A program made the translations under genes and the position numbers. The notes under the pieces were generated by a model. It was not told where the DNA came from. It searched no databases and was given only the letters and a program-made list of their open reading frames with translations. Of a DNA stretch of 64,000 bases, positions 50,608 through 55,696 are shown in pieces. The stretch is taken from assembly GCF_900110465.1 (NCBI RefSeq), contig NZ_FODV01000005.1, positions 186,001-250,000 on the forward strand. Direction: 5' to 3'. Within the stretch, counting starts at the first letter, position 1. Each line of letters starts with the position of its first letter. The stretch comes from Halogranum amylolyticum (GTDB taxonomy: Archaea > Halobacteriota > Halobacteria > Halobacteriales > Haloferacaceae).

Positions 50608-50690
50608 CCGATCTGTCGTCCGTACTCTCTGTTTCGACGTGTGTTAACGGATTCCGAAGGGTTTACTTCGTCGCCGTATAATGAAGGGAT

Positions 50691-51293
50691 ATGTCAGGGC
50701 TGCTACCGTCTGACACGCAGCCGTCTCAGAAGCGGGACGGTGACCTCCGCGTGCTCTGGCTCGACGACGAGGAGTCGGACCAACTCATCAGTTCGCTCTC
50801 CTCGGAGACAGCCCGCTCCATTCTCACCGCGCTTCACGAGGCTCCCGCGACGGCCTCGGAACTCTCCGAGACGGTCGACACCTCGCTCCAGAACATCCGA
50901 CACCACCTGACGAACCTGCAGGACGCCGGGTTGATACAGGTCACCGACACGCGATACTCGGTGAAAGGGCGGGAGATGAACGTCTACGCGCCGACCGACG
51001 ATTCGCTCGTCGTCTGCGTCGGGCGGGAAGACGACCGATCGACGTTCCTGGACTCGTTGCGACGGTTGCTCGGGACGGTGGCGGTGCTCGGAGTTGCGAG
51101 TCTCCTCGTCCAGTTCGCCTTCGGGACGAGCGTCGTCGACGTCGGCGGCCCGGGGACCGCCCCTCGCGTCGGCGACAGCGTCGGCGGCGCGACCGGACCG
51201 CTCCTCGGACTGCTGCCGCCCGGTGCGGCGTTCCTCCTCGGCGGGTTGCTCGTCCTCGCCGTGGTCGCCGTCTGGGATCATCGACGGAGGTGA
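50691..51293 (+). CDS. Membrane-tethered winged-helix (ArsR-like) regulator
   Basis: A 200-residue protein. Residues 30-110 are a winged helix: LISSLSSETARSILTALHEA, TASELSETVDTSLQNIRHHL (recognition helix) and LIQVTDTRYSVKGREMNVY. Residues 123-140 and 170-195 are two membrane helices, so the DNA-binding domain faces the cytoplasm from the membrane. GGGTTTACTT (50659-50668) is at -27 of ATG 50691. The Asp-less subtilase gene starts at the next base after its stop, so the pair is coexpressed. Confidence 0.82.
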   Translation: MSGLLPSDTQPSQKRDGDLRVLWLDDEESDQLISSLSSETARSILTALHEAPATASELSETVDTSLQNIRHHLTNLQDAGLIQVTDTRYSVKGREMNVYAPTDDSLVVCVGREDDRSTFLDSLRRLLGTVAVLGVASLLVQFAFGTSVVDVGGPGTAPRVGDSVGGATGPLLGLLPPGAAFLLGGLLVLAVVAVWDHRRR

Positions 51294-52736
51294 GTGGATG
51301 ACGGCGAGGCGAACCAGGGGTGGGCGGGTGTGAGCCAGCGCCCGCGACGAGTCGCCGTCCACGTGGTACTCGCACTCCTGTTCGCGTCGACCTTCGCAGC
51401 CCCCGCGCTCACGCAGTCGTCGATGCCGGGCGACGCCACCCTCGGCGGTCCCTCTCAGTACGACGACCTCCTTGTCATGCAACGCGGCGCGATACAGGCG
51501 TCGATCGAGGCGCGGACCACCGTCGACGACCCCCGAGAGTCGATCGCCGGGCTCCACAGCGAGGGCAGTCGCGGCACCGACGGCGTGCGTGCGATCCGTG
51601 CCGACGAACTGCACAGACGGGGGATCACCGGTGAAGACGTGAAAGTAGGCGTCGTCGGCAGCGCGTTCGACGCCGACAACGCCGCCATCGCCGACCGCGT
51701 CGCCGGCCACTACCGCGCCGACGAGGGACGTCGTACCACGCAGACCGCACACGACACAGCCGTCGCCGAGGTGGTCACCCGGACCACCCCGGACGCGGCG
51801 CTCTATCTCGCCGGCGTCGGCGACAGTCCCACCCCGCGGTCGTACGCCGACGCCGTCGACTGGCTGGTCGAGCAGGACGTCGACGTCATCGTCGACTCGG
51901 GAAGCTACTTCGCGCCGACGACCGGCGAGATGAACCGCATCTCGGCGGCCGCCGAGCGCGCGTCCGACCGGGGCGTTGTCTTCGTGACGTCGGCGGGCAA
52001 CTACGCCAACCGTCACTGGGCCGGCGTCGCCGACGGCGAGGAGTGGGTCTCGTTCGCGCCCGACTCCGAGTCGAACGCCCTCGCCGGCGGCGACGTGACG
52101 AGCGGGCGCGTCTCGCTGAATCTCTACTGGAACAGTTCGGCGGACTACGACCTCTATCTCTACCGGAAGACGCCCGGCGAGGATCCGGTCGTCGCGAAGT
52201 CAACGACGCGACAGGACGGCGAGAACGCCTCGTCCGTCGAGACGGTCGACGCCGTCGTCCCGAAGGGAGTCTACTACGTCGGCGTCTACACCCACGAGGA
52301 CGCGGCCGACGAGACACAGCTCCGTCTGTTCTCTTCACACCACTCGCTGACGTATACGACGGCGGCGGGCAGCATGGTCGCGCCGGCGACGAGCGAGCGC
52401 GTCATCACCGTCGGTGCGCTCGACGCGAAGAGCGGTCACGTTCGAGCGTACAGCTCACAGGACCGGACCGGCACGCTGCCCGACGTCACGGCTCCCGACG
52501 GCGTCGAGACGACGGCCGCCGGAACGTTCTACGGCACGTCTGCGGCGGCTCCGTACGTCGCGGGGTCGGCCGCACTCGTGAAGTCACGCGACGGCGAACT
52601 CTCTCCGAAACAGGTCGAACAGCTGCTCGAGGCGACCGCACGCGAGACGGAGCACGGCCGTCAGATCGACGCGCTCGCGGCGGTCGAAGCCGCCTCGTCG
52701 GAGAACGTCACTGCTCGTGTCGGCCACGGGTCGTGA
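51294..52736 (+). CDS. Secreted S8 subtilase-fold protein lacking the catalytic Asp
   Basis: A 480-residue protein with a signal peptide (VHVVLALLFASTFAAPAL). The subtilase fold is clear: the first strand reads VKVGVVGSAFDADN, where family members have V-I-D-[ST]-G, so the Asp is Gly. The His block is TAHDTAVAEVV (His kept, next Gly replaced by Asp), the oxyanion Asn is in VFVTSAGN, and the nucleophile Ser is in FYGTSAAAPYVAGSAAL. A prepeptidase-like beta domain (LNLYWNSSADYDLYLYRK) is inserted between the Asn and Ser blocks. It may be a weak protease or a binding protein. Start GTG 51294 abuts the regulator's stop; GTG 51330 would put the signal peptide nearer the N-terminus. Confidence 0.8.
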   Translation: MDDGEANQGWAGVSQRPRRVAVHVVLALLFASTFAAPALTQSSMPGDATLGGPSQYDDLLVMQRGAIQASIEARTTVDDPRESIAGLHSEGSRGTDGVRAIRADELHRRGITGEDVKVGVVGSAFDADNAAIADRVAGHYRADEGRRTTQTAHDTAVAEVVTRTTPDAALYLAGVGDSPTPRSYADAVDWLVEQDVDVIVDSGSYFAPTTGEMNRISAAAERASDRGVVFVTSAGNYANRHWAGVADGEEWVSFAPDSESNALAGGDVTSGRVSLNLYWNSSADYDLYLYRKTPGEDPVVAKSTTRQDGENASSVETVDAVVPKGVYYVGVYTHEDAADETQLRLFSSHHSLTYTTAAGSMVAPATSERVITVGALDAKSGHVRAYSSQDRTGTLPDVTAPDGVETTAAGTFYGTSAAAPYVAGSAALVKSRDGELSPKQVEQLLEATARETEHGRQIDALAAVEAASSENVTARVGHGS

Positions 52737-52825
52737 CCCGACCCGCCCCGACGTTCACCCGGTTCACCCCGACGTTCATCACGGTGGCGACTGTCGGAGT
52801 TAGTAGATGAGACGGCCAGAGTCGG

Positions 52826-53248
52826 GTGGGATCTGACGTGCGCGGACGACACCGTTGGTGGCAGCGTCACCCGTCGACCCGCCGCGAACGGCGCATCGAG
52901 GAGTACTGGAGTTGGCTGGCCGTCTCGCTGTTCTTGCTCGTGACGGTCGATCTCCTGACCTCGATCGCTGCGGCCGCGGTCGTCGGCGTCGGCGCGGAGA
53001 GCAACCCGCTGATGGCGTGGCTCCTTCGGCAGGAGCTGCCAGTGCTCGTCGGCGTCCACGTGGCGGTGGTGGTACTCGTCAGCGTGTCTTTCGCCGGGGT
53101 GGTACGGATGCTCCGGCGGACACCCGACCCGCACGCTCGCTACTTCGCGTTCGGAATCGAACTCTGGCTCGGGTCGTTGCTCGCCGTCGGCCTGTTCGTC
53201 TTCGCGAACAACCTCTCGGTCGTCGTCCACGGAGCGAGCCTCCTGTGA
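52826..53248 (+). CDS. Three-helix membrane protein (DUF5658-like)
   Basis: A 140-residue protein with an Arg/Trp-rich N-terminus and helices at about residues 30-55, 68-95 and 108-135. LVTVDLLTSIAAAAVVGVGAE with ESNPLMAW is the conserved part of a haloarchaeal membrane family I believe is DUF5658. GTG 52826 is used; GTG 52838 is an equal alternative. It follows the subtilase gene by 89 nt on the same strand. Confidence 0.65.
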   Translation: MGSDVRGRHRWWQRHPSTRRERRIEEYWSWLAVSLFLLVTVDLLTSIAAAAVVGVGAESNPLMAWLLRQELPVLVGVHVAVVVLVSVSFAGVVRMLRRTPDPHARYFAFGIELWLGSLLAVGLFVFANNLSVVVHGASLL

Positions 53249-53323
53249 CCGAACCAGAGTTTTTGTGTGAAGCCGCGACCACGCTCCGATACAGCTAACC
53301 ATGGCTACGAGCGAGGAAACGTC

Positions 53324-55696
53324 GTGACCTGGAAGTCGGTGTTCGGCCACGCGGAGCCGTATCCGGAGCAGGCAGAGGGGATCGAGACCACCATCGAGAC
53401 CGCATCACGCGGCGGGTTCACGGTGCTCGAAGGCGCCTGCGGCACTGGCAAGACCATGCTCGCGCTCACCGCGGGCATCGACCGCGTACGCGATCCCGAC
53501 TCCGACTACGAGCGAGTGGTCGTCCTCACGAGCGTCAAACAGCAACTGCGACAGTTCGAGGACGACCTCCGGACGATAAACGAGAACCTCCCCGACGACT
53601 GGCGACCCGTCTCCGGGTTGACGCTCGTCGGCAAGGCCGACGTCTGTCCCTACAGTCGCGAGCGCGTCGCCGGTGTCGACGAGACGAACGTCTACGACCG
53701 CTGTGAGGGACTCCGCGAGCGGACGCGAAACCTCGTCGGCGACGGCGGCGACACCACCGCGGCGTCGCTCGTCTCGCAGGCGCGACAGGCCCAGACCGGC
53801 CTCGCCGACTCGGGGGCGGGCGGCCCGGACTACCTCGAGACTGCGGGCGATCCGACGCCCTACCTTCCAGAGACCCCCGAGTACGGCGACACGGAGTTCT
53901 GCCCCTTCTACGCGCAGTTCCTCGACGACCTGCCGGAGGACGGCGACCCCGTCGAGGCGGTGCCGTTCGACTTCGCCGACCGGGGGCTGCTCGAACCCGA
54001 CGACCTCGTGTCGCTGTCGGCGGGGTTCGGAACCTGTCCGCATTCGATGATGGGGGCGGTTCTCCCTCACGTCGAAGTCGTCGTCGGCAACTACTACCAC
54101 GCGTTCGACCCGACGACGGCGTCGACGTTCACCGGTGCGCTTCTCGACGACTCGACGTTCCTCGTCTGCGACGAGGCGCACATGCTGGAACCGCGGGTCC
54201 GCGACCTCGTCAGCGACGCTGTCGGCGACGTGAGTCTCCGTGACGCCGAGTCCGAACTGACACGCGTCATCCAGCCCCTCGAGTTCGACGACGAGAGCGC
54301 GACGTCGACGGCCGACGCCGATCTCGTTCGCGCGGAACTCGAGGAGTCGGACGTCACGCTCGCCGAACTGAAGGAGCTCCGGCAGTTCCTCGACGACCTG
54401 CGCGAGGAACTGGACCGCCGAGTGAAAGCACAGCTCGACCGCGTCCAACCCGACTGGCGGGCCGACCTGACGCGACTGGAGGACCACGAACTCCCGCTTC
54501 GAGACCCCGAGGAACCCGCGACCGACGAGATAACCGAGTGGGCACAGGATGCGGGGTACGACGGCGGCGTCTGGGCGCGTGCCGAGATACTCGGCTCCGT
54601 CGTCGCACGGGTGCTGAACTCCGCCGAGGAGGAGGACAAGAAACGCGCTACACCCGGCGTCGGCCGCGTCCTCGGCGAGTGGTACCGGCAGGACCACGAG
54701 CGATACTTCCGCGAGATCGAGTTGGAGCGGACGTGGGACGAGACACAGCCCCCCGACTCGTGGCGACGGGCCTACAACGCGCGTCTCGCACTCCACAATT
54801 GCGTGCCGAGCGACGCCATCGGCAGCCAGTTGGCCGAGTTCGGAGGTGGCGTGTTGATGAGCGCGACGCTCGAACCGCTCGACGTGTTCCGTCGCGTCTC
54901 CGGCCTCGACTATCTGGAGGAGGAGGGACGGCCGGTCGTCGAGCGGACGTTCGGACTGGGGTTCCCTCCGGAGAACCGTGCGAGTTTCGCCGTCGACGCG
55001 CCGAAGTTCACCTACGGCAACCGAGGGTCGCCGGGCGAGGAGAACGCGACGCGGCAGGTGTACGCCGACGCGGTCTGTGAGGTGGCCCGTCGTTCTGGAA
55101 ACGTCCTCGTCGGGATGCCGAGCTACAGCGAGGCTGAGTGGATCGCGGGCGTCCTCCGCGACCGACTCGACAAACCCGTGCTCGTCGACGAGTCGAGCGA
55201 CGACGTCGTCACCGAGTCGCTGAAGACGGAGTTCTTCGGCGGCGACGACAAGGTGCTCGTGACCAGCCTCCGAGGAACGCTCACGGAGGGTGTCGACTAC
55301 CGCGGCGACCGTCTCGCGGCTGCCGTCGTCTGCGGCGTCCCCATCATCAACACGTCGAGTCCACGGACGAGAGCCGTCAAGACGGCGTACGACCGGGAGT
55401 TCGGATCGGTGCCCGCGAGCGACGCGGGTAGTGGTTCGCAGGGCGGGGCAGCGTCCCGAAGCGGGTTCGAGACGGCGCTGACAGTGCCGGCTGTCCGGAA
55501 GGCGCGGCAGGCGATCGGTCGGGTCATCCGGGGGGCCGACGAAGTGGGCGTCCGCGTGTTCGTCGACGCCCGCTACGCCCGCGACTCGTGGAACAGCGTC
55601 CGCGAGTACCTCCCCGCCCAGGAGCGCGAGGAGTTCACCGCCGTCAGTACGGACATGCTGTCGTTCGCCCTCGATCAGTTCTGGGACGACCGCTGA
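53324..55696 (+). CDS. Rad3/XPD-type DNA helicase
   Basis: A 790-residue superfamily 2 helicase of the Rad3/XPD/DinG group. Walker A is [13 protein letters not shown], the DEAH box is VCDEAHML, and motif VI is [19 protein letters not shown]. Four Cys ([31 protein letters not shown]) fit the family's [4Fe-4S] cluster. It unwinds DNA 5' to 3' in repair. GTG 53324 gives the family start [28 protein letters not shown] at about 53290-53301 lies at -27. An ATG at 53300 opens a short out-of-frame peptide. Confidence 0.9.

Follow-up and report, generated by a model that had tools for sequence, protein, structure and literature searches.

Genes and features of the locus

The window, by which we mean the whole stretch of 64,000 nucleotides of Halogranum amylolyticum DNA that was analysed, carries on its forward strand the genes of a membrane-tethered winged-helix regulator, an exported subtilase and a small membrane protein. 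The features of this region, with positions counted along the window, are the following:

50653..50668 (+): core-promoter-like element CCGAAGGGTTTACTT, about 30 nt 5' of the regulator ATG, recognized by eye
50691..51293 (+): membrane-tethered winged-helix regulator, 200 aa (HTH_20 and HVO_1552_C in Pfam, AlphaFold2 model)
50796..50996 (+): winged-helix DNA-binding domain of the regulator, residues 36-102 (Pfam, AlphaFold2 model)
51054..51122 (+): regulator membrane helix 1, approximately residues 122-144 (relatives, AlphaFold2 model)
51123..51215 (+): predicted outer loop of the regulator, residues 145-175, with PRVGD at 158-162 (alignment)
51219..51287 (+): regulator membrane helix 2, approximately residues 177-199 (relatives, AlphaFold2 model)
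51330..52736 (+): exported subtilase; the ORF opens at 51294, the start being placed by comparison with Halogranum rubrum
about 51330-51416 (+): signal peptide of the subtilase
51657..51659 (+): subtilase Gly122 codon, at the position of the catalytic Asp32 of subtilisin BPN' (alignment)
51750..51755 (+): subtilase His153-Asp154, the catalytic His64 and an Asp replacing the usual Gly65 (alignment)
51999..52001 (+): subtilase Asn236, at the position of the oxyanion-hole Asn155 (alignment)
52098..52292 (+): PPC-like beta-sandwich, an insertion in the subtilase after the Asn motif and before the Ser motif (weak Pfam PPC match)
52539..52541 (+): subtilase Ser416, at the position of the nucleophile Ser221, in GTSAAAP (alignment)
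52826..53248 (+): DUF5658-like small membrane protein of 140 residues, an optional neighbour (Pfam, below cut-off)
53267..55696 (+): XPD-like helicase, the syntenic right flank, which anchors loci with and without the subtilase as one place

The regulator matches Pfam HTH_20 (E 3.3e-14) and, over residues 111-200, HVO_1552_C (PF24267; E 9.8e-14, 51.8 bits against a cut-off of 27), and its parts stand in the order typical of PF24267 proteins, the HTH domain first and then the HVO_1552_C membrane domain with its two membrane helices. Its AlphaFold2 model consists of a winged helix, a helix at residues 113-144, a low-confidence stretch at 152-170 and a helix at 177-199 (mean pLDDT only 69). Pfam and the model bear out the first-pass annotation, made from the sequence alone, which had described a winged-helix protein with two C-terminal membrane helices. 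By prediction, the protein is a transcription factor carrying a two-helix hairpin and an outer loop, the layout of SREBP. An element similar to CCGAAGGGTTTACTT was found by eye before the regulator in most orthologous loci, and its position about 30 nt ahead of the ATG may imply a leaderless transcript.

The subtilase ORF (51294-52736, +) matches Peptidase_S8 (PF00082) with 76.3 bits against a cut-off of 21.8, in two pieces, the match being split by the inserted beta-sandwich, which scores 21.9 bits with Pfam PPC, under the cut-off of 25.9. The confident core of its AlphaFold2 model superposes on solved subtilisins (Z 36, 2.1 A, 251 residues). With a score over the curated cut-off and a subtilisin fold, the protein belongs to the Peptidase S8 fold family, as anticipated when an exported subtilase fold was first proposed for it. 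That the next gene abuts the regulator stop holds for the ORF, which opens with GTG at 51294 directly after the TGA, but not for the gene, whose probable start is at 51330: because the protein of the closest relative, Halogranum rubrum (L119, L234), begins at the residue matching the window GTG at 51330 (VSQRPRRVAVHVVLALLFASTFAAPALTQ), the gap between the two genes is probably 36 nt, and they are close rather than abutting. The genome of the window has an estimated contamination of 10.8% and yields eight Peptidase_S8 matches, two of which are the subtilase gene of the window.

Subtilase and regulator are paired in many haloarchaea

A search of 292 Halobacteria genomes found relatives of the subtilase (E <= 1e-20) in 84 of them, at 97 places in addition to that in the window. 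Eighty of these loci were read, the 17 left out being the weakest or nearly so (E 9.5e-36 or worse), and in 72 of the 80 the regulator or a homologue adjoins the subtilase on the same strand; 70 of these adjacencies were called by script and two (L057 and L101) by hand, an over-extended reading frame having masked them. The regulator lies upstream of the subtilase in 39 of the 72 loci, as in the window (group A), and downstream in 33 (group B), and the downstream regulators form a clade of their own. The group B pairs (L078-L116) constitute a second subtilase-regulator family with reversed gene order, a mostly full triad and the loop motif PASP. The eight loci without an adjacent regulator (L098, L100, L103, L107, L109, L113, L117 and L118) mostly encode much longer subtilases.

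Named haloarchaeal records gave a similar picture, the group A pair being present in 28 of 30 loci (L119-L148), with the exceptions of L134, a frame-shifted draft, and L145, which encodes a subtilase of 1497 residues. The regulator was not found beside any of 50 subtilases from bacteria or other archaea (L149-L198). The best 40 regulator matches among the 292 genomes are the group A pairs and the window, and the weaker matches, read at twenty loci (of which L199 and L215 are one and the same place), have no subtilase; three of the twenty are short orthologues of the regulator. The regulator and the subtilase are a conserved two-gene module in many haloarchaea, and their coupling is well supported. 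An apparent fusion of the two in Halolamina pelagica CDK2 (L134, L241) was rejected: the subtilase lies in three frames, helix 2 is frame-shifted, and the case is treated as a draft-assembly artefact.

The first-pass annotation had placed three genes in one unit. This stands for the regulator and the subtilase but not for the third gene, which accompanies the pair in 24 of 56 subtilase-positive loci and also occurs in two of 29 subtilase-less loci (L232 and L233). Because it is found in fewer than half of the former and outlives both hairpin and subtilase in the latter, we regard it as an optional neighbour and not as a core part. Its product, a membrane protein, scores 18.5 bits with DUF5658 against a Pfam cut-off of 25.2 and is accordingly termed DUF5658-like. 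PADLOC matches to defence systems (Csa3/CARF HTH for the regulator, a subtilase model for its partner) reflect shared domains, and the surroundings of the pair contain nothing pointing to defence.

Co-occurrence of the membrane hairpin and the subtilase

Group A loci share one place, with the order MFS gene, regulator, subtilase (where present) and XPD-like helicase. We compared 87 loci at this place, namely 39 from the first sample, eight with short regulators and 40 obtained by a search with the DNA-binding domain; these 40 were picked solely by that domain, before their subtilase status was known. Hairpin and subtilase are both present in 56 loci and both absent in 29, and the hairpin occurs alone in two, in line with the coupling of regulator and subtilase suggested in the first-pass annotation. 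The 29 hairpin-less regulators end at about residue 105-149, and the helicase lies inside the stretch read in 28 of these loci, mostly within about 250 bases of the regulator. Since unpaired paralogues retain the hairpin, its absence is considered a loss. One exception, L267, has a hairpin regulator and, some 3.5 kb from it, only the C-terminal fragment of a subtilase; this fragment sits past inserted, possibly transposase-like genes. The other, L268, has the hairpin only and, at 41% identity, is a paralogue.

A tree of the DNA-binding domain contains three independent contrasts on well-supported branches, and subtilase presence tracks the hairpin in nearly every pairing; a sign test on these contrasts gives p 0.25 and cannot reach significance because there are only three. 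The coding end of the hairpin and the subtilase gene being neighbours, a single deletion could remove both. Against such an account speaks the fact that loss of the subtilase alone, the larger target, was observed only in L267. Palindromic GTGATC/GATCAC-like repeats precede the short regulators of one genus (L220, L221, L251-L258, L260 and L261), which are hairpin-less, and are a possible operator.

The outer loop has the consensus P...PRVxD in group A and PASP in group B. P158 and R159 are invariant in 24 aligned regulator rows, and no motif stands out in the loops of 18 unpaired paralogues, apart from the start of helix 2. We know of no site-1 site of the form PRVxD. For proteins with 60-70% identity in the DNA-binding domain, mean loop identity is 0.40 in group A (605 pairs) and 0.35 in group B (182 pairs), against 0.19 among the unpaired paralogues (80 pairs), a figure somewhat lowered by the mixture of several families in the paralogue set; at 70-80% identity the values are 0.45, 0.38 and 0.22, respectively. 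The loop thus shows extra conservation where a subtilase is paired, and, as judged from these alignments, it is about twice as conserved as in the unpaired paralogues.

The catalytic Asp is replaced in the clade of the window

By alignment, Asp32, His64, Asn155 and Ser221 of subtilisin BPN' correspond to Gly122, His153, Asn236 and Ser416 of the window subtilase. The standard Asp-His-Ser triad with its oxyanion Asn is incomplete there, Gly122 standing at Asp32, and the early observation that His, Asn and Ser are present with Gly at the Asp position was correct. The group A active sites were aligned in 67 rows, including 11 extra named relatives (ten Asp-type and L147) and excluding L241, which is frame-shifted. 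The positions of His64, Asn155 and Ser221 are retained in all 67 rows. Gly32 is present in 51, of which 43 have Asp beside the catalytic His (HDT, not HGT), and the combinations are Gly32/Asp65 in 43/67, Asp32/Gly65 in 16/67, Gly32/Gly65 in 8/67 and Asp32/Asp65 in 0/67. Eleven rows chosen from group B (33 paired loci; L098 is unpaired) gave nine with Asp32/Gly65, one with Gly/Gly and one with Ser/Gly. Among 50 wider relatives, Asp32 is found in 49, the other not being alignable at this position, and Gly65 in all 50. The clade of the window in the tree holds 49 rows, 48 with Gly32, so the Gly is conserved, and the missing Asp32 is, on the aligned sequences, a feature of the clade. The label "Asp-less" used in the first-pass annotation applies to position 32 but is incomplete, because most members have an Asp directly after the catalytic His. 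Orthologues with an intact Asp and random neighbours had been named there as evidence against a unit; relatives with an intact Asp do exist (16 of the 67 group A rows and the majority of group B), but their neighbours are not random, the same regulator adjoining them.

One row, L048, has Asp32 and Gly65 and nests inside the Gly32/Asp65 clade (support 92-93). At the 18 columns that separate the two types, it has the Asp-type letter at 32 and 65, the Gly-type letter at 13 and another letter at the remaining three (window residues 207, 215 and 319), where T at 207 and possibly P at 215 are shared with some Asp-type or group B rows. Positions 32 and 65 therefore change together, whichever the direction. 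The argument that they are coupled is based on L048 and on the absence of Asp32 together with Asp65 from all 78 rows; formal independent-pair tests were not significant, with too few contrasts. The Gly32/Gly65 subtilases (L229, L230, L046, L240, L059, L060, L066 and L147) fall in several separate lineages and are the best candidates for anion dependence or for true pseudoproteases.

The two types also differ in the number of residues ahead of position 32, which is 150-176 in the Asp32 members (15/16; L048 has 101) and 69-124 in the Gly32/Asp65 members (41/43; starts are over-extended in the remaining two); the clade of the window is thus without the N-terminal extension that the former have. 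No Pfam match to the Inhibitor_I9 prodomain was obtained in 30 members at E<=0.1, and a profile of the extension gave no solved propeptide in the PDB (best E 0.65). The extension may be called propeptide-like only.

A possible outside-to-inside signalling device

SREBP is a hairpin transcription factor whose luminal loop is cut by site-1 protease, also a subtilase. By analogy, the joint retention or loss of the pair suggests an outside-to-inside signalling device, and we tentatively propose, with slightly less than even confidence, that it is an archaeal analogue of the SREBP/site-1 protease pair, with the outer loop of the regulator as the point at which the subtilase acts. The winged-helix domain would lie inside the cell, held by the two-helix hairpin, with a loop of some 30 residues exposed on the outer side. 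Acting on this loop by direct contact, the exported subtilase would most likely make a slow and specific cut, comparable to that of site-1 protease in the luminal loop of SREBP, after which the regulator would be released or destroyed by a resident membrane protease, for example of the M50/site-2 type. In the clade of the window, the Asp after the catalytic His may either relocate the acid of the triad or make the activity low and conditional; low conditional activity might allow a tethered, matching substrate to be cut while bystanders are spared. In engineered D32G subtilisin, activity is switched on by nitrite or azide, and to a weak degree by 10 mM chloride and formate, and the enzyme has been made substrate-selective (PMC7935941, excerpts), which shows how an Asp-less subtilase can be a conditional and specific protease. 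A signal and target genes of the regulator are presumed parts of the same proposal.

The linkage of the genes in two orders, their joint presence or absence, the conservation of the paired loop, the retention of His, Asn and Ser, and the 32/65 coupling all argue for a signalling module. Cleavage is tentatively preferred to binding without proteolysis, given that Ser, His and Asn do not vary and that most group B members have the full triad. Against it stands the absence of Asp32 from 51 of the 67 group A rows, since loss of Asp32 in subtilisin is known to cost most of the activity. The Gly32 clade, which is also without the N-terminal extension seen in Asp32 members, may therefore no longer be proteolytic. 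The window's genome has five M50 loci, which could make the second cut and of which none is linked to the pair. Haloferax volcanii has four M50 proteins of unknown function (review PMC9263693, excerpts). A general tie between the regulator family and M50 proteases was rejected, most M50 matches in the 12 genomes searched being distant. In these genomes one regulator paralogue, the unpaired hairpin protein of L207 (G068:C1:3271098-3272711), adjoins an M50 (site-2 type) protease gene, and a second has a weak M50 match at a distance of about 3.6 kb.

The main rival of cleavage, which we hold to be rather unlikely, is that the subtilase is a pseudoprotease sensor or ligand that binds an outside signal and the loop and alters DNA binding by contact, without cutting, on the model of the Csp pseudoproteases that relay germinant signals in Clostridioides difficile spores. 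The catalytic Asp missing from 48 of 49 rows of the window's clade and the lost N-terminal extension would fit this, as would the beta-sandwich inserted in the subtilase domain like the jelly roll of the Csp proteins (PMC6636752, excerpts); CspB (4i0w) is the third-ranked Foldseek match, and CspA and CspC are also among the matches. However, the His64, Asn155 and Ser221 positions are kept throughout, whereas CspA and CspC are altered at two triad residues (PMC6636752, excerpts), the coupling of Asp65 to Gly32 suggests compensation and not decay, and group B mostly has the full triad (9/11 rows used).

A further form of the cleavage reading, which we think distinctly unlikely, is that the triad has been rebuilt by the move of Asp32 to 65 and that the Gly32/Gly65 sisters depend on an anion (e.g. 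chloride), as does the engineered D32G enzyme, the subtilase being a salinity- or anion-gated site-1-type protease on the loop of the regulator.

We consider it improbable that the pair is an ordinary regulator with its target, the regulator controlling the adjacent extracellular protease or binding protein while the hairpin senses something else. HTH genes beside their targets are common, and the close spacing and the conserved promoter-like element before the regulator fit co-expression, but this leaves unexplained both the extra conservation of the loop and the loss of the hairpin with the subtilase (29/29 subtilase-less orthologues have short regulators). Decay of a former protease gene kept by chance next to the regulator would account for the lost Asp and N-terminal extension, but it is already disfavoured by conservation and hardly credible given the long intact frames, the invariant His, Asn and Ser in many genera and the joint change at 32 and 65.

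Relation to known systems

The pair resembles the SREBP/site-1 protease (MBTPS1) system of animals in its hairpin transcription factor, short outer (luminal) loop and subtilase partner, and in the several M50 (site-2 type) proteases of the window's genome. It differs in that the archaeal regulator has another DNA-binding fold and that no SCAP-like escort was seen, and no homology is claimed; moreover, the subtilase of the window is without the Asp of an intact-triad, loop-cutting subtilase and without a recognised prodomain, the genes are linked as a pair, and cleavage is presumed. The Csp proteins are signal transducers of the subtilase fold with an inserted beta-sandwich or jelly roll and lost catalytic residues (PMC6636752, excerpts). 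The window subtilase has a similar fold and an insertion; unlike it, the Csp proteins have no membrane regulator partner and keep a prodomain, and CspA and CspC have two changed triad residues where the window subtilase, with Ser and His kept, has one. Engineered anion-triggered subtilisins (D32A/D32G of BPN'), with 3f49, 3bgo and 6ube ranking high among the fold matches to the window subtilase, have the same residue replaced, Asp32 to Gly; they are not natural and retain Gly65, whereas most natural Gly32 members have Asp65.

The window regulator is a member of the HVO_1552_C regulators (PF24267), whose unpaired paralogues are without the conserved loop motif. Both bacteria and archaea are known to possess one-component regulators of the transmembrane type (PMC10269533, excerpts), and ArnR and ArnR1 of Sulfolobus are membrane-bound HTH proteins (PMC6396743); no subtilase partner is mentioned for these or for HVO_1552_C regulators in the material consulted. 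As the first-pass annotation had supposed, no description of the regulator-subtilase pair was found in the open PMC literature, nor of the co-loss with the hairpin, the loop motif or the 32/65 exchange, and no paper on HVO_1552; the domains themselves are known already.

How archaeal membrane-tethered regulators receive outside signals is poorly known, and we are aware of subtilase signalling of the site-1 type only in eukaryotes. If many haloarchaea possess such a system as a linked pair of genes, it could be put to a direct test in a simple cell. The joint change to Gly32 and Asp65 would be an experiment of nature on the oldest catalytic triad of the textbooks, alongside the anion-triggered subtilisins of the laboratory. 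Anion gating, if true, would fit organisms living in molar salt and would provide an archaeal counterpart of SREBP signalling.
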